Below are positions 30,291-44,533 of a stretch of DNA of 64,000 nt, piece by piece. Position 1 is the stretch's first letter. Every line of letters begins with the position of its first letter. This DNA is from Leptospiraceae bacterium (lineage in GTDB: Bacteria; Spirochaetota; Leptospiria; Leptospirales; Leptospiraceae). The stretch covers positions 1-64,000 of the forward strand of contig JAKRSH010000031.1 of the NCBI GenBank assembly GCA_022402465.1, read 5' to 3'. The notes beneath the pieces are model-generated. The model had not been told where the DNA came from, did no database searches, and saw only the letters and a program-made list of their open reading frames with translations. The translations under genes and the position numbers were made by a program.

Positions 30291-30632
30291 ATGAAAATAA
30301 AAGTTACTAGTAAAAATGATGTTCATATTATAAAAATTGAAGGCGCTATCAAGGCTGGAAATGAATTTGAATTGGGTGAGAAAATCGAATTGTACATCAA
30401 GAAGGGAGAGGTGCCTAAATTTATTGTTGATTTAAAGAAGGTTCCTTTTATCAATTCAGCTGGACTTGGAACTTTTTTAAACATTTTCAAGCATATCGAT
30501 GGTTTGAATGGAAGAATTGTTTTTGCAAATTTGAACTCAGATATCGAAAATCTTATGGAAATCACCAAACTCGCTAGTATTTTTGAAATTTATAAGACTC
30601 TTGAGGAAGCTATAGAATCCTTCGAATACTAA
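30291..30632 (+). CDS. STAS-domain anti-sigma factor antagonist
   Basis: The 113-residue single-domain STAS protein has the phosphorylation motif FINSAGLGTFLN, with Ser56 as the expected target. In partner switching, the unphosphorylated antagonist binds an anti-sigma kinase and frees a sigma factor, and a SpoIIE-type phosphatase removes the phosphate. Two SpoIIE phosphatases are in this window (20640-23903 and 48040-49434), but no RsbW-like anti-sigma kinase is. A start ATG at 30291 follows AGGGTT. The gene sits between the possible sigma-like gene and the AsmA-like gene, all on one strand. Confidence 0.9.
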   Translation: MKIKVTSKNDVHIIKIEGAIKAGNEFELGEKIELYIKKGEVPKFIVDLKKVPFINSAGLGTFLNIFKHIDGLNGRIVFANLNSDIENLMEITKLASIFEIYKTLEEAIESFEY

Positions 30633-30676: not shown

Positions 30677-33600
30677 ATGGTATCGAAGATCCTATTTTGG
30701 ATAAGAAAGAAAAGAATCTATATCCCCTTTCTATTCATATTCTTTTATAAACTTATATTCAATAGTATTACAGGACAAATTCTTCTAGACAAGGGATTTC
30801 AAATTTTTGCAGAGCAAGGACGTCTCCACGCAAATGTTCGAACATTTTCTCTTTTCTATGGAATTGAAATAGAAGACATTATCCTGAATGCAGGGCCTAG
30901 GTTTCAATCCCAAGAAATCTTCTCTGCGCAAGCTCTGCGCCTGCGCTATAATCTTCCCTATTTATTTTTTCTTAGAGCAAAAGTCTCCGAGATTGCCTTA
31001 GTAAATGCAAAAGTACAGCTAACAAAAGCAGGTGAAATTTGGAATTTTGAAGAAGTTTTTCCTCCATCCACTGAAGCTACAATAGAACCTATTCCAGAAT
31101 TCGTAGAAGAATCTGAGCCATCAGAATCTCTTTTCCTGGGTCTACCTGTCAGTGCTTATGCGCAAATCAATTTGGAAAATGTTTCTTTTCAGATGAAGGA
31201 TCTTTCCTATGCTTCGCCTTTGGATTTGGGCTTTCGAGATTTGAATTTGCATTTCGAATTGGATACAAATCGTTTTATCCAAATTCCTTATAACCTAGAT
31301 GCCTTAGATCTTATTGATCAGATTCATTTGGAATTAAATCCTAAGGCTGCACTTTTAACTTGGTACAAAGATTCAAAGATTCAATTTGAAGCTCCCCTAG
31401 ATATGAGTCTAGTTCTACATTCAAGTAAGACTGATCCGTTTAGCCTAGAATCTAAATTAAAGTTAGGTGGAGATAATCTTATCATTCAGAGAAATAATAG
31501 ACTTCCTCTGCTTGTGAAGATGATCTTAGCTTATGATCTGAAATTTATTCCTGAAGAGGATAGAATTTTACTCAAAGATTTAAGTTGTGTGTTTCAAAAT
31601 GATACATGGTTTCACATTAAAGGAGACCTTAACCAAATCTCTTCCAAGCAAAGGTCAATGAATCTTACTTTGAGTGACTCTGACATCTATCTCGAACCAC
31701 TTTCTAGAGTTCTAGAGGAATTGCCCATTCCTCCCATGAAGTTAGGTGGTAGAATACAATTGAGCCCTTTAATTGCTAAGGGACGCTTAGAAGATTTACA
31801 ATTAGAATGGAAGCTTAAAGCCAGAGATGTGTATTTCCAGAAGAATGGAAAGCAACATAAGTCTCAGTTTTTAGATTTAGAAACTAGGGCTAATTTAGAT
31901 CTAGTCTCCCAAGAGAAACCTAGTGCAGAAAGACCCTTGCCACTTCTTAAATCGATTTACATAGATACTCTCAAGGCGGAGTACAACGGAATCCTTGCTA
32001 ATCTATCAGGCAGTTTGGGTTCGAATATTCCTATAGATTTAGAATTGAATTTAGATAAACTTGAACTAGGACTTTTTGTTTCGAATCTATCAGGACTATT
32101 AAAAGCGAATCTAAATGTTCGAGCAGAGAATTTTGCAAATATCAATGCGGACTTGAATGCAGCCCTTAGTTTTTTTCGATTTACTATGGATAGAAGTCGA
32201 TCGGGCAATTCTTTTTCAAAAATATCTGCTAAGGCTGATCTTCAATTCAATGAGCCTTTTCAAGTCTCCAAGATTGCTATTCAAGGCTTGGATCTAGGAA
32301 CGAAGAATGCCCAAAGTGCAGAAGCACTCTCCCTTAAATCCTCTGCAATTGTGTCTTTGGGAGAGGCAATTGTTATTGATTTAAAACAAACAAATATTAA
32401 TACAAACCTTGCTAATCTAAGTTTGATACTGCCGCTTACCTTAAAGGAGAAAGTTGCTCCCATAGAATCTTCCTTAGGCGCTGTGATTAAGCTTGGGATC
32501 AATGGTTTTTTTGATATAGGAAATGGAAACTATAAGGGCAATTTAACATCCATTATACCTGGAATTGAACTCAGGGATTTGGTTGGAAATTTTGCTCTTC
32601 GTATGCCAGCGGGTGAGGGTTCCAAAATTTTCTTGGATAATCTACAGTTTCGTGCTTATCAAAACGCACTTGGATTCAATGCAAGTGGCAAATTGGAAAA
32701 GCGAAATACTAAAGATAAACCTCCTTTAGGTGATTATTTCGGAGATTTGAAACTAAAGCTATTTCTGAACTCCAGCTTAGAAAGTTACATAGCAAAGGGA
32801 TTGAGCTACCGCGGGAATATGTACATGGATCTTAATATAAAAGACTATGATATAACGGGTGACTTTATCTCTAATAATTCTAAGATAATTTTTAATAATG
32901 GATCTTGTCCAGGAAGTTCTTGTAAGATTTTTCTAGTAGATACCTTAAATGCAGAAGTACCTGTCCATCACGATCTTTCCATAGGTTCCACTCGGGAATT
33001 AATAGAGGGAGATAAATCTCGGTTTATTAAAACGTATGGACGTGTCCCTAAAGATAATTTTACCATACAACAAGTGCTAGGCTCTCATCCCTCTATAGAA
33101 GGTGCTCCCTTTGCTTATGTAAAATCATCTGGTTCCTATCCTGGGCTAACATCTAGAATCCAATATAAGGAAAATTATCTTTTCATAGATGGAATTCGTT
33201 TATCGCTCTTGGATGGTATGGTTTATGGGAAAGATTTCATAGTCAATGTTGGTTCTGGTGATTTAGAAAAGATGGAATATATGGGTAGTCTGCAGGTTCG
33301 TGATATTGATTTGAGGCAGCTTCTTTCCAAAGATGCCCAAGGAAAGATTGATGATGGAAAGATAAAAGCAGATCTAAATCTTTCTGGGGTTAATTTAGAT
33401 GATCCCATTCCCAATATTAATTTGTACTTTAGTATTTTTCAAATAGGTAGAGATTTTGGTAAGAGTGCAATGAATGTAATTTCTACAAAAGGTGCCATTA
33501 TGGATTTTATTATTGATAGTTATGCGGTAGATAAGGTAGAAGTTGAACTTTCTAAGGGCTTGGTTTATGCTGATGTTCTCTTTAAGAAGTCGATTCTTTC

Positions 33601-33700
33601 CTATGTAGTAAGTTTGGAGGACAGTAAGATTTCTCAACAAAGAATGCCTTTGGCGAATTTTCTCAAACGTGCCGGTTCAGAGATCTCAACATATAAGTAA
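30677..33700 (+). CDS. AsmA-like / YdbH-like envelope protein
   Basis: The 1007-residue protein has one N-terminal membrane anchor (~13-35, IYIPFLFIFFYKLIFNSI). The long remainder has alternating beta-strand patterns (L-x-L-x-x-D-x-L-x-L), as in AsmA, TamB and YdbH bridge proteins that form lipid-carrying grooves between the inner and outer membranes. The C-terminal part (~850-1000, MGSLQVRDIDLRQLLS ... GVNLDDPIPNINLYF) fits the AsmA/YdbH C-terminal region. The next gene, starting at the base after its stop, encodes a DUF1318 protein, the family of E. coli YdbL, which is co-operonic with ydbH. A role in phospholipid transport to the outer membrane is inferred from this. Confidence 0.75.
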   Translation: MVSKILFWIRKKRIYIPFLFIFFYKLIFNSITGQILLDKGFQIFAEQGRLHANVRTFSLFYGIEIEDIILNAGPRFQSQEIFSAQALRLRYNLPYLFFLRAKVSEIALVNAKVQLTKAGEIWNFEEVFPPSTEATIEPIPEFVEESEPSESLFLGLPVSAYAQINLENVSFQMKDLSYASPLDLGFRDLNLHFELDTNRFIQIPYNLDALDLIDQIHLELNPKAALLTWYKDSKIQFEAPLDMSLVLHSSKTDPFSLESKLKLGGDNLIIQRNNRLPLLVKMILAYDLKFIPEEDRILLKDLSCVFQNDTWFHIKGDLNQISSKQRSMNLTLSDSDIYLEPLSRVLEELPIPPMKLGGRIQLSPLIAKGRLEDLQLEWKLKARDVYFQKNGKQHKSQFLDLETRANLDLVSQEKPSAERPLPLLKSIYIDTLKAEYNGILANLSGSLGSNIPIDLELNLDKLELGLFVSNLSGLLKANLNVRAENFANINADLNAALSFFRFTMDRSRSGNSFSKISAKADLQFNEPFQVSKIAIQGLDLGTKNAQSAEALSLKSSAIVSLGEAIVIDLKQTNINTNLANLSLILPLTLKEKVAPIESSLGAVIKLGINGFFDIGNGNYKGNLTSIIPGIELRDLVGNFALRMPAGEGSKIFLDNLQFRAYQNALGFNASGKLEKRNTKDKPPLGDYFGDLKLKLFLNSSLESYIAKGLSYRGNMYMDLNIKDYDITGDFISNNSKIIFNNGSCPGSSCKIFLVDTLNAEVPVHHDLSIGSTRELIEGDKSRFIKTYGRVPKDNFTIQQVLGSHPSIEGAPFAYVKSSGSYPGLTSRIQYKENYLFIDGIRLSLLDGMVYGKDFIVNVGSGDLEKMEYMGSLQVRDIDLRQLLSKDAQGKIDDGKIKADLNLSGVNLDDPIPNINLYFSIFQIGRDFGKSAMNVISTKGAIMDFIIDSYAVDKVEVELSKGLVYADVLFKKSILSYVVSLEDSKISQQRMPLANFLKRAGSEISTYK

Positions 33701-34327
33701 ATGAATCTTAAAAAATTGAATACTAAAAGTAACATCACTCGCTTTATGAAAATTGCTCTTCCAAAACCAATTGTTCTTATCATTCTTTTGTATGTTCTTA
33801 ACCAATGCAGTCTTAAGGCTCCAGCCATTACTTTTACTCAGACTCAAACAGCTTCCGAGAAGCAGATGATAGGCGAAGATAAAGAAATCGAAAAAGATGG
33901 TTGGTTGATATCTTCAATTAAATCATCATCTTCGGGATCTGATCTTTGGCAGAAGGACGATAGCACAGATTCTATTTCTGATAAAGATCTGATCATTCAA
34001 TTGAAGAAGCTTGCATACTTAATTCCAGAGATTTCTGAATGGAAGGATAAGGGCATGATAGGTGAGTCTTATGACGGAACCCTTAAGAAAAATCCCAAAG
34101 TTCCCATTTCTCCTGCAAGTAATATCAGCCGAGTAGAGCAGCTTATCGATTTGGTGAATCAGACCCGAGCGAGAGTTATAGAATCCAAGTTACTTAAAGA
34201 GAAGTTAGCAGATCCAAATGTAGATTTAGTTGATCTCAAGAAATCCTTAACACTAGTTCATTACCAGAATGTAGAACCTGGACAGTATTTCGAATCTAGT
34301 AAATCTGTTTGGGAGAAAAAGGATTAA
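33701..34327 (+). CDS. DUF1318 (YdbL-like) lipoprotein
   Basis: The 208-residue protein has a hydrophobic stretch ending in VLNQC, a relaxed spirochaetal lipobox (Cys ~36, or ~21 if ATG 33746 is the start). After a polar linker, residues ~125-208 match DUF1318: NPKVPISPASNISRVEQL, then NQTRARVIESKLL. E. coli YdbL is a small periplasmic protein encoded with YdbH and the lipoprotein YnbE; here a lipid anchor and a YdbL domain occur in one chain, so the protein could combine YnbE and YdbL roles. The start ATG touches the previous stop (TAA-ATG), and the stop is two bases before the next gene. Confidence 0.75.
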   Translation: MNLKKLNTKSNITRFMKIALPKPIVLIILLYVLNQCSLKAPAITFTQTQTASEKQMIGEDKEIEKDGWLISSIKSSSSGSDLWQKDDSTDSISDKDLIIQLKKLAYLIPEISEWKDKGMIGESYDGTLKKNPKVPISPASNISRVEQLIDLVNQTRARVIESKLLKEKLADPNVDLVDLKKSLTLVHYQNVEPGQYFESSKSVWEKKD

Positions 34328-34329
34328 GA

Positions 34330-37300
34330 ATGCTTAGACTTGTTTTCTTTGTTCTGATCTTTAGCAATTGTGTTTTATTTCAGAAGTCTCTTAAGATCAA
34401 ACCTATACCATTTCACTACCAAGAAATAAGTAAAAATTTCTTTAATCCTAAGAATGATAAACCTTTTCCATTAACAATACAAAGAGGAAATAATTTATAC
34501 AATACTACCACAGCCGATGGGAGATTTTTGTTTTATGCAACCAATAAAGAAGGGAACTTTGATATTTGGTTTAGAGACTTGAATAGCTCGATTGTAGTTC
34601 CTGTAACAGAGCACCCATCCCAAGAGTTGAAACCAGCTATTAGTCCAGATGGAAGCAAACTAGTGTTTGTATCTGAGCAATACGACTCTGAGGGAGATAT
34701 TCTTCTTCTTGAGATGGATCCTAATGAATGGGTAGAATCAATTCTCAAGGGTAAGAGATTTGTAGACCAAGATTTTAAAGTGCTTACCAATCCTGATTGG
34801 AAGAATTCCAATAGGCAGCAAAAGGTAATAGATACTGATCCAGCTTGGTTTCCTAATGGTGAACAGATTGTATTTTCTTCAGATCGATTCTCACCAGGAA
34901 CCCAGAATTTAATTCTCTTAGATCTAAGTCAAAAGAATGAAATGACTCAACTAACGATTAACGGAGGGACTTCTCCTTTTGTATCAAGAGATGGAAGGCA
35001 GATTTATTTTCTTTCATACATGGATAGCACTAATGGAGAGATCTACCGACTTGATATAAATTCAGGTAAGATCTTTCCTATCACAAAGAATGGATTTTTG
35101 AATTTTTCTCCATCCATTTCTAGCGATAATCGTTTTTTGTACTATACATCAATTCGTAAGGATACAAATGGAAACGGAGTCTTAGATGAAAGAGATAATT
35201 CTTATATTGTTCGAAGAGATTTAAATTCTGGAAATGAAAAATTCCTGAGTTCTGGAGATAATTCTATCTTTGATACCCGCTATTCAGATTTCAATGGTGG
35301 ATCTATTCTTTTCTCAGCTGCTTTTTATAATTCTATCAACATCTACTTTATCCCATACACAGGTTCTATTCCTAAGCAATCCAATATCATCGACCAATAC
35401 AACTACGCATTAGAATATGCTAATTCCAAATCAGAAGCAAGATACTTTCTTGCTTTGGATAGTGTAGAATTATTCTTCGAGTCAGATCCCTTATATTCAA
35501 TTTATCGAGCTAGAATCGATCATAAAAGGATGGAATTCTATCAAAATAATAGAAGTTTTGCTAAGCTAGAGAAGCTAAGAACTGCTATGCGAGATAGGCC
35601 TTTAGTTTCTGATTCTCTTTCTATTGCTTATGCCTTAGCCCAAGAATCTAAGTCATCACTTATAAGTCAAATCCAAGGGATAGATGGTCTTATCAAAAGG
35701 TTAGATTCCCTTGGTAGCAGTAAAGATTACTCTCAAGAAAAAGCATCCTTACTTCATCTAAGAGTTGAGCTCCAAGAAAAGAATAAAGATTTCCAATCTG
35801 CAAGACAGACTCTACTTATCATCCAAAACCTTTATCCAAATTATCATCTAATTCGTGATATCCGAAATAAATCAGGACAATACGAATTTCTCCCTGATTC
35901 TGTGGCACTTCCAAAATACTATAAAGAATCTATCCTAGCTTATGAGTCAGCTATTCAAAATGATACATCTATCAATTCCCTGATGAAATTAGAAATGAAG
36001 GATTTACTTTCTGATTGGGAGAAAAAAGTTTTCCAAGATAAAAGTTACAAAGAAGCAATCACCTTAGTTACTAAGATGGAAGAAAATCCTGAAAATCCTT
36101 TGCAGTCTACTATTTTCAAATCATACGTAAGCTTTCTGAAAGCAAAAGCATTTAGGTCTATGAGAAATCTCAATGAGAGTTCTTCCATTCTAGATACCTT
36201 GATTCCAATTCCACAGAATCTTGAGTTGGATCCTCCAGGGCAGAAGTCTGTATTTGAATATCCTGAGTTTATTAAAATCTACAAAAATCCAGCCTTAAGC
36301 TATATCCACCTAATACGATACAGCAATGCCCAAGACCAAGGAAATGGAACCTTGGCTCTTCGAAATCTGCGTATATTTATGGAATTTTACGATCCTCTGG
36401 TAAGCCCAGAGTTAAAAGAAGAAGAGTTTTCTCGATTATTTTTATATTGGGAAAACAAGGCAATCGAATATGAAAGAATTGGTGATCTCCGCCAAGCAGC
36501 TGTTCACTATTATTTCAATAATTTAGGTATGTCCTTAGCGAAATCTAAGAATATCTCTGTTGAAAAATTCTATGGTAACTATGCGGTTTATTACCAAAGA
36601 AAAATGCTTGAGACGATTTTCACCTATGGAAGAGAGCTAAGACAGAAAGAAGAAGCAGCTTTTTTAAACCAATTGAATATTCTCGGTGAAGGAAAGCTTA
36701 ATATTATAGGCAATCTTTCTGATACAGTATCCTTAATTGATAAGGTTCCCATCCCATTTCTGGACAAATTGAAACTTCTAGGTGATTTTAGAGATCTTCA
36801 GAACAAGGATGTGCTTCATGAAAATGCAACCTCACTTGCTGATTTATATTTTAACTTTCATTTAGAGAAAAATAGACCCTACCTTAATCTAGCAGTTGTT
36901 TATGGTTATGCTTATTATTTGATCAATAGAGCGGTAATAAATGAGACTGCCTTATATAAAAACAATGCAATGTCTCCCGGCAAGAAACAACAAATCTTAG
37001 AGAACTTCAAAAAGGCAGAGTATGAGCTAAGATGGATATTATTTTCAGATCCAACTTTCCCTGATGCCTACCAGCTTTTAGGTTGGCTCTACCAATACAT
37101 AGATATCATTAAGACCAAACGTTTAGATCAAGAAGGAATCACTGAAGAAGAAAGATATGATAGTTTGTATGCTAAACATTTTCCAGAGAAAAACTTTGAA
37201 GAAAATGTGGAGCTTTATTCTCAAATTTTAGAATTTCTTGGAAAGGAATATAAAAATAAGAAAGTTTTATCTGATTTGAATTTGAATCTTGGAAATAATT

Positions 37301-40300
37301 ATTTTTTATTAAGCATTTATCCAAAGTCCAATGAAGCTTCTGCAAAGGTAGAAGACTTTGGTAAATTTATTCTGTCTAGGTCTCAATTTGAAAACTACCA
37401 ACAGGAAGCTATCTTTCATTTTAATTATGGTAGATCATCACTTTATAGAGCAAATTATAAAAAAGCGATTCAACAATTTACACTCGCATTAAACATTTAC
37501 GAGAAGAAAGAATACTACCAATCACTGACTGCTTATTCTGATTCAAATTCAAAAAATGGCAGTACATCATTCGGAGAAGTAAAACGAAAGCTCGCAATTC
37601 TTAATGCCATGATAGGACTTTGTAAGATGGAATTGGGAGATCACGAAGGTTCTATTGCTCATTTCCAATCTGCAATTTCCCAAAATAGAATAAACAAAGA
37701 AATCGATGAATTGAATCTTTGGAATTCTCTTGCTATAGCTTATCAGAAAACGGGAAGATACAAGGAATCAAGAAATATTTTAGATATAGCGGACAAGGAG
37801 TATGTGGAGAAAAAGTCTCTCTTATCTATATTTGATATTTCAATAACTAAAATATTTTGGAACTTCTTTCTGCCAGATAGCGTTAGGGTTTCAGGAGAAG
37901 GCAGATTTCCTGGAGAATTTCCATTAGATTACAAACGTTTGTTAACAAAAAGTATACGAATCAATAATTTAATTCAAGAAAGAGACTTTATTAAAGCAAT
38001 ATACTTAATTAAAGATCGAGACGATTTCATTCGTTCAGCGGATTTAAAGAAATGGGAAATGGGTGTTTTGGTTACCCAACAATCTTATGCCTTACTTGGC
38101 GAGATTTATTATGAATCAAGAAATTATATGGAAGCATATAATTCATTTGAGAAAATGCAGATTGGTTATCAAAAATCTCAAGCTGCACAGGGGGAAAGGG
38201 TGGCAGTGATTCGAAAGAATTATTCTGCATTTGCGCTCGTTGAAACAGAGGAAAATCCTTCTCTTGCCGCCGAACTTTTACTTAAGAATATCAAGCAACT
38301 TTTAGATCAAAGAAATAATCAGACGAAGTTTTGTCGTGAAAGTTTTGACACTCAAATATGTAATTTACGTTACGTGAAAGGATTTAAGAATTATGAAATA
38401 TTAATGGGTTTAAATTATTATTATCTAGGTGAAATTTCTAATTTTCAAAAAGATAAAATTAAAGCTGTTGAGTATTGGTCCGCTTCCTATCAATATCTTA
38501 AAAATCCAGGCGGTATTGATTCAAGATTTTATATGCTGCCTCAGGATATATTGACTCGAAGAGAAAGGATCCGAAACTTTATTAACCTAGCGAGATTGCA
38601 TCTTCGTCTAGATAATTCAGAAGAGGCTATCAATTCTTTAAAGCTAGCTCGTGAATACTCTTATGAATTTAATTTGGAAAGAGAATCCTTCCTGACGGAG
38701 TTAGTTGAACTCGAATCACAAATTCGATCCAATTCTTTTACAAAAAAATCTATTCCAAGTTTGACAAGACAACTGAATTTAGTAGAAAATAAATGGAAAT
38801 CTTCTAAATTACTTCCATACCAAATTAAAGAGGCAAGCCTCAATAGTTTTTATGATATGAGAATGGGGCTTAGCTATCTTTTGAATCGTGATGGCGAAGT
38901 TCCCTTGCTTAGAGATGAATACCGTTTCCAAAGATTACACCAAGAAGTAATTCAATCCTCATTAGAATTTACTGATTTGAATTTGGACAAATTGTACAAA
39001 GATCATCAGGCAACCTTAAAAAATCTTATCAAATCTCAGTCAACCTGGGAGAGACAATCTCTTGCAAGGAGTAAAACAAATAAAACCCAAGCTAGATATT
39101 CAAGTTTATTGAGAAATTTAAAGCAAATTGAAAATTCTTTATTAAAAGAATTTCCCAAAGAATCTTATTTTCTCCAGTCTTCAATTAAGTCTCGTTATGA
39201 GAATCTCCCTTTGGGAACAATTTCTCTACGTTGTCATAAATTCCATAACTCAATTCATTTATGGATCAGAAAGAACAATAAAACCGAACATTCTGTTCTC
39301 CCAAGTTCAGAAGTTGATTTTTCATTGAATCAAATTTTAAATCCATATAAAGAATTTTCAAGAGCATTTGTTAATCCAGATAATTGTACCGAATTGTACT
39401 CTTCTAAATCAGATTTTCAAAATACTTATCTTATTTCATCAGAAAGAATGGTTCAGGATATTCCCCAGAAAGAAGGACAAGAATGGCGTTATAGAACTTC
39501 TTTTGGCGAAGCTAAGCATAAGTCTGCAGATCGTTTGCAATATTCATCCGAAGAAAATTTAGGACCTAAGCTATTGAATACGGATCTTTACTTCAGCCAA
39601 AACTCTGAAATCAATAATTTGTATCCTATCTTTAGTTATTCAGAGAAGAATGGTTTGAATCTTAGAGAAATTTTCACAAATAAAAATGAACTCTCTGCTT
39701 TAGCAATTCAATCTAATAAAACCAATAAGCAATTTATAGAAAGGCTTAATGATATCCATGATTTATTTTATAGCCTTAGACCTATTAATGTAATTTTCTC
39801 CGAACCATTGGAACTCGATCAGATGAAGAATTTCAAACGAGAAGAATTCCAAGCAAAAGGTTTTATTCTAGGGCTTCTTCCCGACTTGGTGGACAGTAAG
39901 ATTTCCTTAGATAAATACCAAAAGAAGAGAATCCTTGCTATTCAAGAAGAAAGAGCAAAAAACTATGAATCAGCCTACGATAAATATTATTTAGCAAGTA
40001 ATTTTCTAACAGAGGCACAAAAGCAGGCAATCCTTGAAAGTAAATTGGATTTGGCTCGAATTAAAAGGCGTTTGTACTCTGATTATGACCCTGATTATTT
40101 TTATAAAAATATTTTGGAAGAATATAAATCTGACAAAGAGTCTCTTGATAAAATATACAATGTTTTCTTAAGAGATTGCTTTTCGGATAGAACAATTCGT
40201 ATCCGAAGAAATATTTGCGATGCATACTATGTTGAATGGAAGAAAAAGAACTCCTTAGCAAGCAGTGTAGATTTTTATTATAAGATGTACAAAGGCGAGA

Positions 40301-42333
40301 TTAAGAACCTGGACACAGCCCTGGAACTTGCCTTAGGCGATACAGATGACGATGACTATATCCGATATATGCGAATTTCCGATTTATACTTGGAGAATTT
40401 TCTTTTTGATGAATCTAAAAATTTTGCAGAAAAAGCGGGCAAGGTTTCTTCTTCTTCCAGAGAAAGAGCATTCGTAGATTCTCGTTTTCTAGAAATTCAA
40501 TACCATCGTGCTTTCTTAGAGGGTCGAACGGAATTTACCTATGAAACCATTCCGAGCCAAACTAGTTATGCTCTAGGACTCGGACGAAATTGGGACAAAT
40601 TTACAGAAAAAGTAAATTCGGAAACCTTTAAAAAGTTAGGTGATTCTGACAGTATATACGATGAATACCGAAAGAGAATGTACAATAGGTGGAGAGATTG
40701 GGAGTATGGGAAGGAATTTGAATCTGTAGCCTTAATTCCGGATGAGTTGTATGAGGGCGGTTCAGTGCTTTCCAAAATGACTCATTTGAATAGAACCTTA
40801 TACTTTTATTTACTTCAACAATCTTCTAAGCACCAACTTAATTCAGAATCAGATGCACTGATGGACCAACTACTAAAACAAGAGGAAGAAGAGGGTTTCA
40901 ACAATAGATCTTTCGCATACCAACTCTATTACGCTGATCAATTGATACGCAATGGTGAATTAAACTCTGCACTTAAATACATTCGTAACTTTGAGACAAA
41001 ATACGATGCCAACAAAAGTTTTCATCCTTTTTTAGAAAGAAAATACAATTATCTTATCTTTAAATTATCGAGATTCAAAGATGAGATAGTCTTTTTAAAG
41101 AATACTGAGAAATTTATTGAACCAGATGTGAAAACTCTCCTTGGTGCATTTCGTAAAAGTAAGAAAGATGGGCCAGAAAGTTTTGATATTATTTTGAATT
41201 CTTATGTTCAAAGTATTTCTAAGAGAACTAAGGCATTTACTCTTTATGAACGAAATAAATTAGAAGACCTTATGCAATACATGTCTCAGGTAGCATTAGA
41301 ATTTGATAGTTCCGAAGGATTTCTGGATCTTGTTCATTTTCAAGATACATTGAATGCATACAATGAACGATCACTTGGAAATAAATTATTAGTTAAAGAC
41401 CTACCAAAATTCAAATCAATATCTACTCAATTGATGAAAGGTATTCCACCAGGACAAAACCTTCATGTGGTTTCTGATTTTCTAGATAAAACTTATTTAG
41501 TGACAGTTTCTCAAGGTAAGAACAACGGAAGAGTCCTATTCCCAAATAAAAATGAAATACGAAAGGCACTCCGTAAATATAATATTTCTTCTTTGGAAGG
41601 AGGTGAGGAAGCTAGACTACGTGATATAATTGATGATAAATATCGTAATACAATTCGACTCCAGAAAGAAAGTATCAATTATCTCTATCTATCTTCTCAT
41701 CATTTGAAAGCCCCACTTTTACAAAAGGTTGATAACCAAAATTATCTTGTGCAGAATCTATCTTCTTTAGTTGATAATCCTCCTGTAAAGAAATCCTCTT
41801 TATCTTTTCAAAGAGCCAAGATAAAGAAATTTACTCAGACAAATCTATCCGATAAGTCTTACAATGATTTGAAGTCGATTGAAAACTGGGAACTCGCATC
41901 TCTAGACTCAGCCTTGGGCAATGAAATTTCTCTATCCCAAGAAGAATTATTGATGAATACCAAACATGAATTAATTTTTGGTGGAACATCCCTTGTCAAT
42001 TTAGCTAAACAAAAATCAGACCGTAAATCGATTTGGCTAACAAGTTCTAATTATTTAGGACGAGAATACTATCTATCCAATTCTCTAAATCATTCTCTAT
42101 ACTTCCTAGACTCCATACATAAAGGGCCGGGCATTATTTCGATTGAAGATCAATCTGATTTTCCAAATTCATTTTTCTTAAAGAATTTACTTTCCGGTAA
42201 ATCAGAAAAGATGGAACTAAGGTTTCGACTTATGGAAGCAAGAGAAAATCAAAGAATACGATATCCATTTGATAAATATTGGCATGGTTACAGATTGTAC
42301 ACATCTAGTTTTGTCCTAGATGATACGAAATAG
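34330..42333 (+). CDS. Giant lipoprotein: beta-propeller, TPR repeats, CHAT-like modules
   Basis: The 2667-residue protein starts with a signal peptide and lipobox IFSNC (Cys ~15). Residues ~45-330 form a TolB/WD40-like propeller (repeated SPDGSKLVFVS, FPNGEQIVFSSDR, SRDGRQIYFLS, SSDNRFLYYTS), including a calcium-loop-like DTNGNGVLDERD. TPR-type helical repeats run from ~360 to ~1500 (for example FNYGRSSLYRANYKKAIQQF, NSLAIAYQKTGRYKESRNIL). Two later blocks (~1600-1860 and ~2370-2667) have a CHAT-protease layout: a strand pair, a TYLISS or INYLYLSS block, and for the second a terminal PFDKYWHGYRLY, but I cannot find the catalytic His and Cys. ATG 34330 is preceded by AAGGA; the in-frame TTG 34309 is weaker. 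Coupling to the DUF1318 and AsmA-like genes suggests a shared envelope role. Confidence 0.75.
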   Translation: MLRLVFFVLIFSNCVLFQKSLKIKPIPFHYQEISKNFFNPKNDKPFPLTIQRGNNLYNTTTADGRFLFYATNKEGNFDIWFRDLNSSIVVPVTEHPSQELKPAISPDGSKLVFVSEQYDSEGDILLLEMDPNEWVESILKGKRFVDQDFKVLTNPDWKNSNRQQKVIDTDPAWFPNGEQIVFSSDRFSPGTQNLILLDLSQKNEMTQLTINGGTSPFVSRDGRQIYFLSYMDSTNGEIYRLDINSGKIFPITKNGFLNFSPSISSDNRFLYYTSIRKDTNGNGVLDERDNSYIVRRDLNSGNEKFLSSGDNSIFDTRYSDFNGGSILFSAAFYNSINIYFIPYTGSIPKQSNIIDQYNYALEYANSKSEARYFLALDSVELFFESDPLYSIYRARIDHKRMEFYQNNRSFAKLEKLRTAMRDRPLVSDSLSIAYALAQESKSSLISQIQGIDGLIKRLDSLGSSKDYSQEKASLLHLRVELQEKNKDFQSARQTLLIIQNLYPNYHLIRDIRNKSGQYEFLPDSVALPKYYKESILAYESAIQNDTSINSLMKLEMKDLLSDWEKKVFQDKSYKEAITLVTKMEENPENPLQSTIFKSYVSFLKAKAFRSMRNLNESSSILDTLIPIPQNLELDPPGQKSVFEYPEFIKIYKNPALSYIHLIRYSNAQDQGNGTLALRNLRIFMEFYDPLVSPELKEEEFSRLFLYWENKAIEYERIGDLRQAAVHYYFNNLGMSLAKSKNISVEKFYGNYAVYYQRKMLETIFTYGRELRQKEEAAFLNQLNILGEGKLNIIGNLSDTVSLIDKVPIPFLDKLKLLGDFRDLQNKDVLHENATSLADLYFNFHLEKNRPYLNLAVVYGYAYYLINRAVINETALYKNNAMSPGKKQQILENFKKAEYELRWILFSDPTFPDAYQLLGWLYQYIDIIKTKRLDQEGITEEERYDSLYAKHFPEKNFEENVELYSQILEFLGKEYKNKKVLSDLNLNLGNNYFLLSIYPKSNEASAKVEDFGKFILSRSQFENYQQEAIFHFNYGRSSLYRANYKKAIQQFTLALNIYEKKEYYQSLTAYSDSNSKNGSTSFGEVKRKLAILNAMIGLCKMELGDHEGSIAHFQSAISQNRINKEIDELNLWNSLAIAYQKTGRYKESRNILDIADKEYVEKKSLLSIFDISITKIFWNFFLPDSVRVSGEGRFPGEFPLDYKRLLTKSIRINNLIQERDFIKAIYLIKDRDDFIRSADLKKWEMGVLVTQQSYALLGEIYYESRNYMEAYNSFEKMQIGYQKSQAAQGERVAVIRKNYSAFALVETEENPSLAAELLLKNIKQLLDQRNNQTKFCRESFDTQICNLRYVKGFKNYEILMGLNYYYLGEISNFQKDKIKAVEYWSASYQYLKNPGGIDSRFYMLPQDILTRRERIRNFINLARLHLRLDNSEEAINSLKLAREYSYEFNLERESFLTELVELESQIRSNSFTKKSIPSLTRQLNLVENKWKSSKLLPYQIKEASLNSFYDMRMGLSYLLNRDGEVPLLRDEYRFQRLHQEVIQSSLEFTDLNLDKLYKDHQATLKNLIKSQSTWERQSLARSKTNKTQARYSSLLRNLKQIENSLLKEFPKESYFLQSSIKSRYENLPLGTISLRCHKFHNSIHLWIRKNNKTEHSVLPSSEVDFSLNQILNPYKEFSRAFVNPDNCTELYSSKSDFQNTYLISSERMVQDIPQKEGQEWRYRTSFGEAKHKSADRLQYSSEENLGPKLLNTDLYFSQNSEINNLYPIFSYSEKNGLNLREIFTNKNELSALAIQSNKTNKQFIERLNDIHDLFYSLRPINVIFSEPLELDQMKNFKREEFQAKGFILGLLPDLVDSKISLDKYQKKRILAIQEERAKNYESAYDKYYLASNFLTEAQKQAILESKLDLARIKRRLYSDYDPDYFYKNILEEYKSDKESLDKIYNVFLRDCFSDRTIRIRRNICDAYYVEWKKKNSLASSVDFYYKMYKGEIKNLDTALELALGDTDDDDYIRYMRISDLYLENFLFDESKNFAEKAGKVSSSSRERAFVDSRFLEIQYHRAFLEGRTEFTYETIPSQTSYALGLGRNWDKFTEKVNSETFKKLGDSDSIYDEYRKRMYNRWRDWEYGKEFESVALIPDELYEGGSVLSKMTHLNRTLYFYLLQQSSKHQLNSESDALMDQLLKQEEEEGFNNRSFAYQLYYADQLIRNGELNSALKYIRNFETKYDANKSFHPFLERKYNYLIFKLSRFKDEIVFLKNTEKFIEPDVKTLLGAFRKSKKDGPESFDIILNSYVQSISKRTKAFTLYERNKLEDLMQYMSQVALEFDSSEGFLDLVHFQDTLNAYNERSLGNKLLVKDLPKFKSISTQLMKGIPPGQNLHVVSDFLDKTYLVTVSQGKNNGRVLFPNKNEIRKALRKYNISSLEGGEEARLRDIIDDKYRNTIRLQKESINYLYLSSHHLKAPLLQKVDNQNYLVQNLSSLVDNPPVKKSSLSFQRAKIKKFTQTNLSDKSYNDLKSIENWELASLDSALGNEISLSQEELLMNTKHELIFGGTSLVNLAKQKSDRKSIWLTSSNYLGREYYLSNSLNHSLYFLDSIHKGPGIISIEDQSDFPNSFFLKNLLSGKSEKMELRFRLMEARENQRIRYPFDKYWHGYRLYTSSFVLDDTK

Positions 42334-43411: not shown

Positions 43412-44533
43412 ATGGTCCAAAATAGTAAAATACCTCGGATAGTCTATATAAATCTCATCCTTATCTTTACGGTTTTGGGAGCAATTTTTTTTCCTGAACT
43501 TAGAGATGCGATCAGTCATTTTACTGCCTCTTCCCGTCCGATTCCACCTCGCAAGCAAATGCAAGCTGTATATTTGCAGAACTCTTTTCGGAATGTCTAC
43601 CAAATCGCTCAGAAGTCCGTTGTTTCCATTCGTACGAAAAAAACGGAAATGATCCACAATCCCTACCATTATTTTGACAACAAAGAAGAAACAATATCAT
43701 CGGTGGGTAGTGGTTTTCTTATAGATCCGAGGGGATTTATTGTTACGAATTATCATGTTATACGATCTGCCGAAATAATAGAAGTAATCCTTCACAATGG
43801 AAGAGTCGCTCCAGCAAGATTTGTTGGAAGTCATGAAAGAGCTGACATTGCTCTCTTAAAAATCCAAGAAGCTGATGACTATGAATATGCGTCTCTAGGT
43901 GACTCTGATGAAGTAGAAGTGGGTGACTGGGCTATTGCGGTAGGATCTCCCTATGGTCTTGAGAAAACTTTTACAGTGGGAGTTGTCTCCGCCAGATCCA
44001 GAGAAGACCTAGACGAGACTGGACAGACTCATATCCAAACTGACACAGCAATCAATCCAGGGTCTAGCGGTGGTCCACTTCTCAACATATATGGCGAGGT
44101 CATTGGTATCAATCGTATGATTCGATCGGCATCAGGTGAATCAGCTGGAATTGGTTTTGCTATTCCTATCAACTATGCCAAAAAAGTTCTGAAGACCATA
44201 GAAGCAAATGTAGGAGTGAATATTCGCCCTGCTATGTTAGGTGTTGTTGCAACCATTCCAATTCCACATCACAGAGAAGCGCTTAGTATTCCTGCCCAAG
44301 AACTTGGAGTATTGATTTATGATATAGAGCCTAAGTCTTCTGCTGACTTTGGAGGCTTGGAGAAATTTGATTTTATTCGTATGGCCAACGGTTCTATCAT
44401 TCGAAACACCAATGATTTGAGAGAACAAGTAAGTCTCGCTGGTCTAGGCGGGAAGCTTCGTTTAAATATAATTAGGCGTTCTAAGATTCAAGAAATAGAT
44501 ATAAAATTAATAGATAAGCAGTATTACGAATGA
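43412..44533 (+). CDS. HtrA/DegP-type serine protease
   Basis: The 373-residue protease has an N-terminal membrane anchor (~10-29), a trypsin-like domain with His115 (NYHV), Asp145 (RADIALLK) and Ser219 (PGSSGGPL), and one C-terminal PDZ domain (~265-365). HtrA proteases degrade or refold damaged envelope proteins in the periplasm. It has a single PDZ, as in DegS, rather than two as in DegP, and it remains anchored, so a regulatory protease role is possible. The last four bases overlap the aminotransferase start (ATGA). It is divergent from the aminopeptidase lipoprotein with only about 54 bp between the start codons. Confidence 0.93.
   Translation: MVQNSKIPRIVYINLILIFTVLGAIFFPELRDAISHFTASSRPIPPRKQMQAVYLQNSFRNVYQIAQKSVVSIRTKKTEMIHNPYHYFDNKEETISSVGSGFLIDPRGFIVTNYHVIRSAEIIEVILHNGRVAPARFVGSHERADIALLKIQEADDYEYASLGDSDEVEVGDWAIAVGSPYGLEKTFTVGVVSARSREDLDETGQTHIQTDTAINPGSSGGPLLNIYGEVIGINRMIRSASGESAGIGFAIPINYAKKVLKTIEANVGVNIRPAMLGVVATIPIPHHREALSIPAQELGVLIYDIEPKSSADFGGLEKFDFIRMANGSIIRNTNDLREQVSLAGLGGKLRLNIIRRSKIQEIDIKLIDKQYYE

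Follow-up and report, generated by a model that had tools for sequence, protein, structure and literature searches.

Do three tightly packed genes of a Leptospiraceae bacterium encode a trans-envelope lipid-transfer system, and how would such a system relate to the bridges already described? Phospholipid delivery to the outer membrane has been studied mainly in Proteobacteria, through TamB, YhdP and YdbH. These three proteins are collectively essential in E. coli (PMC12977461, PMC11784454, PMC8593681), where a part in phospholipid transport has been reported for YdbH together with the lipoprotein YnbE (PMC12977461, PMC11784454), and the question of which further factors belong to AsmA-type bridges is unsettled in the field (PMC12977461). 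The locus considered here lies in a contig stretch of 64,000 nucleotides (the window) and comprises genes for an AsmA-superfamily protein, a DUF1318 lipoprotein and a giant lipoprotein (Table 1). A literature search, mostly without subscription journals, found no paper describing this triad, and nothing was found on LIC_11026-11028. For Leptospira-like spirochaetes in which TamB is not detectable, the triad offers a hypothesis of how the envelope is built.

The first-pass annotation had described the three genes as packed with gaps of 0 and 2 bases. The open reading frames are real and the spacing is as claimed, with the stop codon of the AsmA-like gene abutting the ATG of the DUF1318 gene and the stop codon of the latter followed after 2 bases by the ATG of the giant. 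Among relatives, the genes frequently overlap by 4 bases at these junctions (e.g., L072 and L076). An alternative in-frame TTG start at 34309 would lengthen the giant to 2674 aa. A scan for promoter and terminator consensus sequences gave counts no higher than in shuffles. On the same strand, 44 bases upstream of the triad, is a gene for a STAS-domain anti-sigma-factor antagonist (window 30291-30632), which was rejected as a fourth member because the ORFs at that position in the listed relatives are not of STAS size. A gene for an HtrA/DegP-type serine protease (window 43412-44533) is found shortly downstream, separated from the triad by a convergent ORF without family on the opposite strand.

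Table 1. Features of the triad locus, in window coordinates.
Feature	Position	Strand	Evidence
AsmA-superfamily bridge protein (LIC_11026 family), 1007 aa	30677..33700	+	NF047499; DUF748/AsmA/TamB Pfam matches of orthologues; AF2 model
N-terminal hydrophobic helices, residues 15-44	30719..30808	+	Model helices 15-27 and 30-44; hydrophobic sequence
Conserved C-terminal strand-helix motif IxQERxPLAxFLxRAxSE, residues 984-1005	33626..33691	+	Invariant residues in alignments
DUF1318 (YdbL-type) lipoprotein, 208 aa	33701..34327	+	PF07027; hhalign to E. coli YdbL
Lipobox cysteine C36 (LNQC) of DUF1318 lipoprotein	33806..33808	+	Sequence
Conserved post-anchor segment PxITxTxxxTAxEKQxIGEDKEIEKDGWLIxS	33821..33925	+	Invariant residues
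DUF1318 domain	34028..34321	+	PF07027; hhalign
Giant lipoprotein, 2667 aa from ATG	34330..42333	+	ORF, lipobox, PD40, TPR
Lipobox cysteine of giant, C21 in TTG numbering	34369..34371	+	Alignment of 23 giants
PD40/TolB-like beta-propeller, approx. residues 47-400	34447..35508	+	PF07676, TIGR02800
Most conserved TPR block, approx. residues 850-1170	36856..37818	+	TPR_12 7.6e-8
C-terminal TPR array and CHAT/separase-like fold, residues 1861-2669	39889..42315	+	Foldseek, VIA-align
CHAT/separase-like region, residues 2251-2669	41059..42315	+	VIA-align; column check

The first protein had been called AsmA/YdbH-like, and only the broader half of this name holds. The window's protein matches NCBIfam NF047499 with 1107 bits, a family without an assigned function, and has no direct match to the AsmA clan in Pfam. 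Of 19 relatives, 12 match DUF748 (best 5e-10), three match AsmA and one matches TamB, while orthologous ORFs from other classes (families f14, f12 and f31; e.g., G103 and G178) exceed the PF05170 cut-off. An AlphaFold2 model built on 16 sequences (pLDDT 80.5) predicts a continuous all-beta groove preceded by an N-terminal helix. Its best Foldseek match is the middle region of ApoB100 (E 6.7e-4), an N-terminal Vps13 fragment is found at probability 0.87, and VIA-align scores it at Z 12 against both ApoB and assorted barrels, which shows the beta architecture of the modeled chain and not a specific relative. AsmA or TamB chains are absent among the top structural matches listed, and a sequence search of solved structures returned nothing for either this protein or the DUF1318 lipoprotein. 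Profile matches and predicted fold together place the first protein in the AsmA superfamily. Membership in the YdbH family itself is not supported by a survey with PF11739, which has no match in the window genome and none in 197 of 198 genomes, the sole match being a sub-threshold one (E 0.0024) to the orthologous ORF of G040; an hhalign comparison with the single E. coli YdbH also found nothing and is uninformative. Residues 15-44 are presumed to be an inner-membrane anchor, and the C-terminal motif, in which Q987, R989, P991 and F995 are invariant (alignments A2 and A5), is presumed to be the distal docking end.

The second protein had been claimed to hold a lipid anchor and a YdbL domain in one chain, and both are found, the anchor as the lipobox LNQC and the domain by homology. 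The window's copy matches PF07027 at E 6e-5 with 23.9 bits, short of the cut-off of 27, and 16 of 19 orthologues match this family (best 1.8e-8). The profile comparison with E. coli YdbL gave the same picture (hhalign probability 92.7, E 4e-7), with an alignment that extends to a C-terminal GEY/GEW...W motif. A lipobox-like cysteine was present in those orthologues that were read. As judged from its sequence, the second protein is a relative of YdbL with its own putative lipid anchor. The segment after the anchor, also written PxITxTxxxTAxERQxIGExxExEKDxW, is strongly conserved, and P41, T46, T50, E53, Q55, G58, G67, W68 and S72 are invariant within the order. In 20 genomes, the triad locus gave no match to the YnbE family PF13617 (Lipoprotein_19) with E-values up to 10, and hhalign of the N-terminus of the DUF1318 lipoprotein against YnbE found nothing. 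An ungapped comparison of the post-anchor segment with YnbE detects a weak likeness over 24 residues (post hoc p 0.0045), for which p is 0.016 when a broader profile is used (0.035 over 28 residues) and which is unseen at 16 and 20. The idea that this segment is a YnbE-like strand is therefore suggestive at best.

The nearest known system is ydbH-ynbE-ydbL of E. coli. In both, an AsmA-superfamily gene comes first and is followed by a lipoprotein and a DUF1318/YdbL domain, and the YdbL parts are homologous. Unlike the E. coli operon, the triad fuses lipoprotein and YdbL domain into one protein, has no PF13617 YnbE and adds the 2667-aa lipoprotein, while its bridge protein, in contrast to YdbH, lacks a PF11739 match. 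The fused lipoprotein-YdbL protein and the giant partner are what is new here.

The giant had been described as a lipoprotein with a propeller and TPRs, and this description is borne out by a lipobox cysteine in 21 of 23 aligned giants and by PD40 and TPR matches. The propeller matches PF07676 at 2.5e-22. Although the E-value against TolB TIGR02800 is 2e-22, the score of 79.7 bits leaves the equivalog cut-off of 343 unmet. A PD40/TolB-like propeller at the N-terminus is shared with TolB of the Tol-Pal system, but the giant is far below the TolB cut-off, is lipid-anchored and has its propeller fused to a TPR and CHAT-like part of over 2000 residues. Invariant residues are most densely packed in the TPR block, at about residues 860-1000 (alignments A3/A4). 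The C-terminus was modeled over residues 1480-2674 from 10 sequences (overall pLDDT 69.5). Foldseek matched this model to separase (E 8.5e-8), to TPR-CHAT (E 8.8e-7) and also to the transmembrane anti-sigma factor DdvA (E 2.8e-6), and VIA-align superposed it on Csx29 (8eex_B) with Z 19.9 and an rmsd of 4.3 over 307 residues, the aligned part being model residues 772-1190, or 2251-2669 of the giant. There is no Pfam CHAT match at E 1, and the fold was found by structure alone. Csx29 and separase thus share the predicted fold of the giant's C-terminus, from which they differ in that the giant has neither a conserved Cys, a near-invariant His nor a Pfam CHAT match, and in that it stands in the context of an extracytoplasmic lipoprotein, with no CRISPR or cell-cycle setting. 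Across residues 2251-2674 of the 23 aligned giants, a conserved Cys column and a near-invariant His are both absent, and the best His column is occupied in 13 of the 23, with Ser in the window's giant. Because the Cys columns are absent and there is one partial His column, a role as a cysteine protease is unlikely for this family, and its TPR-CHAT/separase fold is, on the evidence of these columns, apparently protease-dead.

Do these three genes belong together beyond this one locus? Among 198 Spirochaetota genomes, the AsmA profile is found in 99, the DUF1318 lipoprotein in 87 and the giant in 93 (95 when two short propeller-only matches are counted). All 87 genomes with the DUF1318 lipoprotein have the giant, and 86 have the full triad; within the order, profile and protein searches find the three together. 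That the genes be neighbours in relatives had been set beforehand as the test of the arrangement, and in 47 genomes, from nine families (f1, f2, f12, f23, f31, f35, f39, f41 and f46), the three lie side by side with their order unchanged. The first two genes are linked in 25 genomes, and the remaining triads are complete and unlinked or partly linked. Families f3, f5 and f6 retain all three genes at separate loci (the DUF1318 lipoprotein was not detected in two f3 genomes), and in f14 the bridge-DUF1318 pair is linked, with a 2300-aa giant elsewhere. The triad is an ancient unit that co-occurs beyond chance, and the giant, which the first-pass annotation had proposed as an added component, is a genuine and obligate third partner. 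To that description our analysis adds the CHAT/separase-like C-terminus of the giant, the phylum-wide range of the triad and its near-exclusion of TamB.

The history of the unit is also recorded in its duplication. In genus g5, which belongs to the window's family, genomes carry every component twice (bridge, DUF1318 lipoprotein and giant), and the same two clades, type I and type II, appear in each of the three gene trees. Type I comprises contiguous sets such as L064, L065 and L067, and type II takes in the window's set together with G024 and the remaining copies from g5. Support for types I and II is 98/98 and 87/91 in the bridge tree and 100/100 and 97/97 in the giant tree; the type I lipoprotein clade has 84/96, the G024 lipoprotein falls outside both clades, and some joins involve long branches. 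The whole triad was duplicated once in the window's family. Both co-occurrence and co-duplication show the giant to be obligately paired with its partners. Since the unit was duplicated as a whole and the giant was later unlinked without being lost, one joint function best explains the triad. The g5 type II pair is adjoined by ORFs of about 1760 aa (at the same place in L068:9050-14332 and L070:10631-15925), which have no likeness to the giant.

The distribution of the triad was compared with that of TamB, which was called by PF04357 at E 1e-5, a threshold at which the window genome has no match. In a comparison of 103 genera, the triad occurs in 41, TamB in 37 and both in two (Fisher 2e-8, a value that overstates the exclusion since genera are not independent). 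The two genera with both are g35, of which many species were sampled, and g38, and 27 of the 103 have neither at the thresholds used. Triad and TamB are nearly mutually exclusive in Spirochaetota. Family f23 shows both states, with TamB but no triad in genus g57 (G069 and G123) and the triad but no TamB in eight other genera. Such a switch within one family is not easily put down to ancestry alone. With TamB, the first protein shares the AsmA superfamily and, as predicted here, an inner-membrane-anchored beta groove, and the near-exclusive distribution suggests overlapping duty; unlike TAM, the triad has two lipoproteins and no Omp85 partner, and it occurs here in a genome without PF04357. The near-exclusion makes the functional equivalence of triad and TamB testable.

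Taken together, the triad is probably one trans-envelope lipid-transfer system, which takes the place of TamB in those spirochaetes that have it. The N-terminal helix of the first protein would hold it in the inner membrane, and its long groove of beta structure, as modeled here, would span the periplasm and let lipid tails slide along it, as may be supposed by analogy with the AsmA superfamily. At the outer membrane, the DUF1318 lipoprotein would meet the conserved C-terminal end of the bridge and control or complete its docking, as the gene order and domain content of ydbH-ynbE-ydbL suggest. The giant would serve as the obligate scaffold of that end in a complex of all three proteins, and, being strictly co-inherited, it is an immediate candidate for the part of an AsmA-type bridge that lies at the outer membrane. 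It is conceivable, though we regard it as somewhat doubtful, that a distinct envelope machine displaced TamB in much of Spirochaetota and that its AsmA-type bridge has the giant, a pseudo-separase lipoprotein, as outer-membrane receptor. If true, a giant lipoprotein would fill the role that the Omp85 barrel has in TAM.

TamB also serves outer-membrane protein assembly, so its replacement alone does not imply lipid as the cargo. The chief rival to a lipid bridge is a role in protein assembly, as TamB works with BamA in Treponema and Borrelia (PMC8407342), where the two would do what the triad would do here, namely assemble outer-membrane or surface proteins (beta-barrels, lipoproteins) and not transport phospholipid in bulk. 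The near-exclusion of triad and TamB fits this as well, and the AsmA-family protein GspN is reported to serve lipoprotein surface transport in Acinetobacter (PMC12802150). We nevertheless consider protein assembly unlikely, for the triad contains no BamA/TamA-type gene and its YdbL-type partner points to the YdbH branch, whose reported phenotype is in lipid homeostasis.

It is less probable still that the triad is an envelope sensor or regulator, in which the giant would monitor the envelope and the AsmA-like protein transmit its state, with lipids not being the cargo. The resemblance to DdvA and the upstream STAS gene speak for such a role, but that gene is not matched in size by the ORFs just upstream in the listed relatives, a signalling domain is absent from all three genes, and TPR-CHAT and separase chains outscore DdvA in VIA-align. 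That the triad is LPS-related, and present since these spirochaetes make LPS, is hardly credible. LpxC is found in 60 of the 86 triad genomes, a weak positive association, yet five families have the triad without LpxC (f12, f23, f31, f35 and f41) and four have LpxC without the triad (f8, f9, f19 and f21), a distribution that largely refutes the link.

The preferred reading, a lipid-transfer system, does not make the triad protein the sole candidate bridge of the window genome, since three further AsmA-superfamily ORFs are found there at C35:11667-13403, C45:37251-37691 and C9:89076-89522 (728, 732 and 491 aa, respectively). With these ORFs besides the first protein, bridge redundancy as in E. 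coli is likely. Among the giants of other genomes, one match (G199:C81:32000-33112) lies inside an open frame given as 11060 aa, which is perhaps due to an N run.
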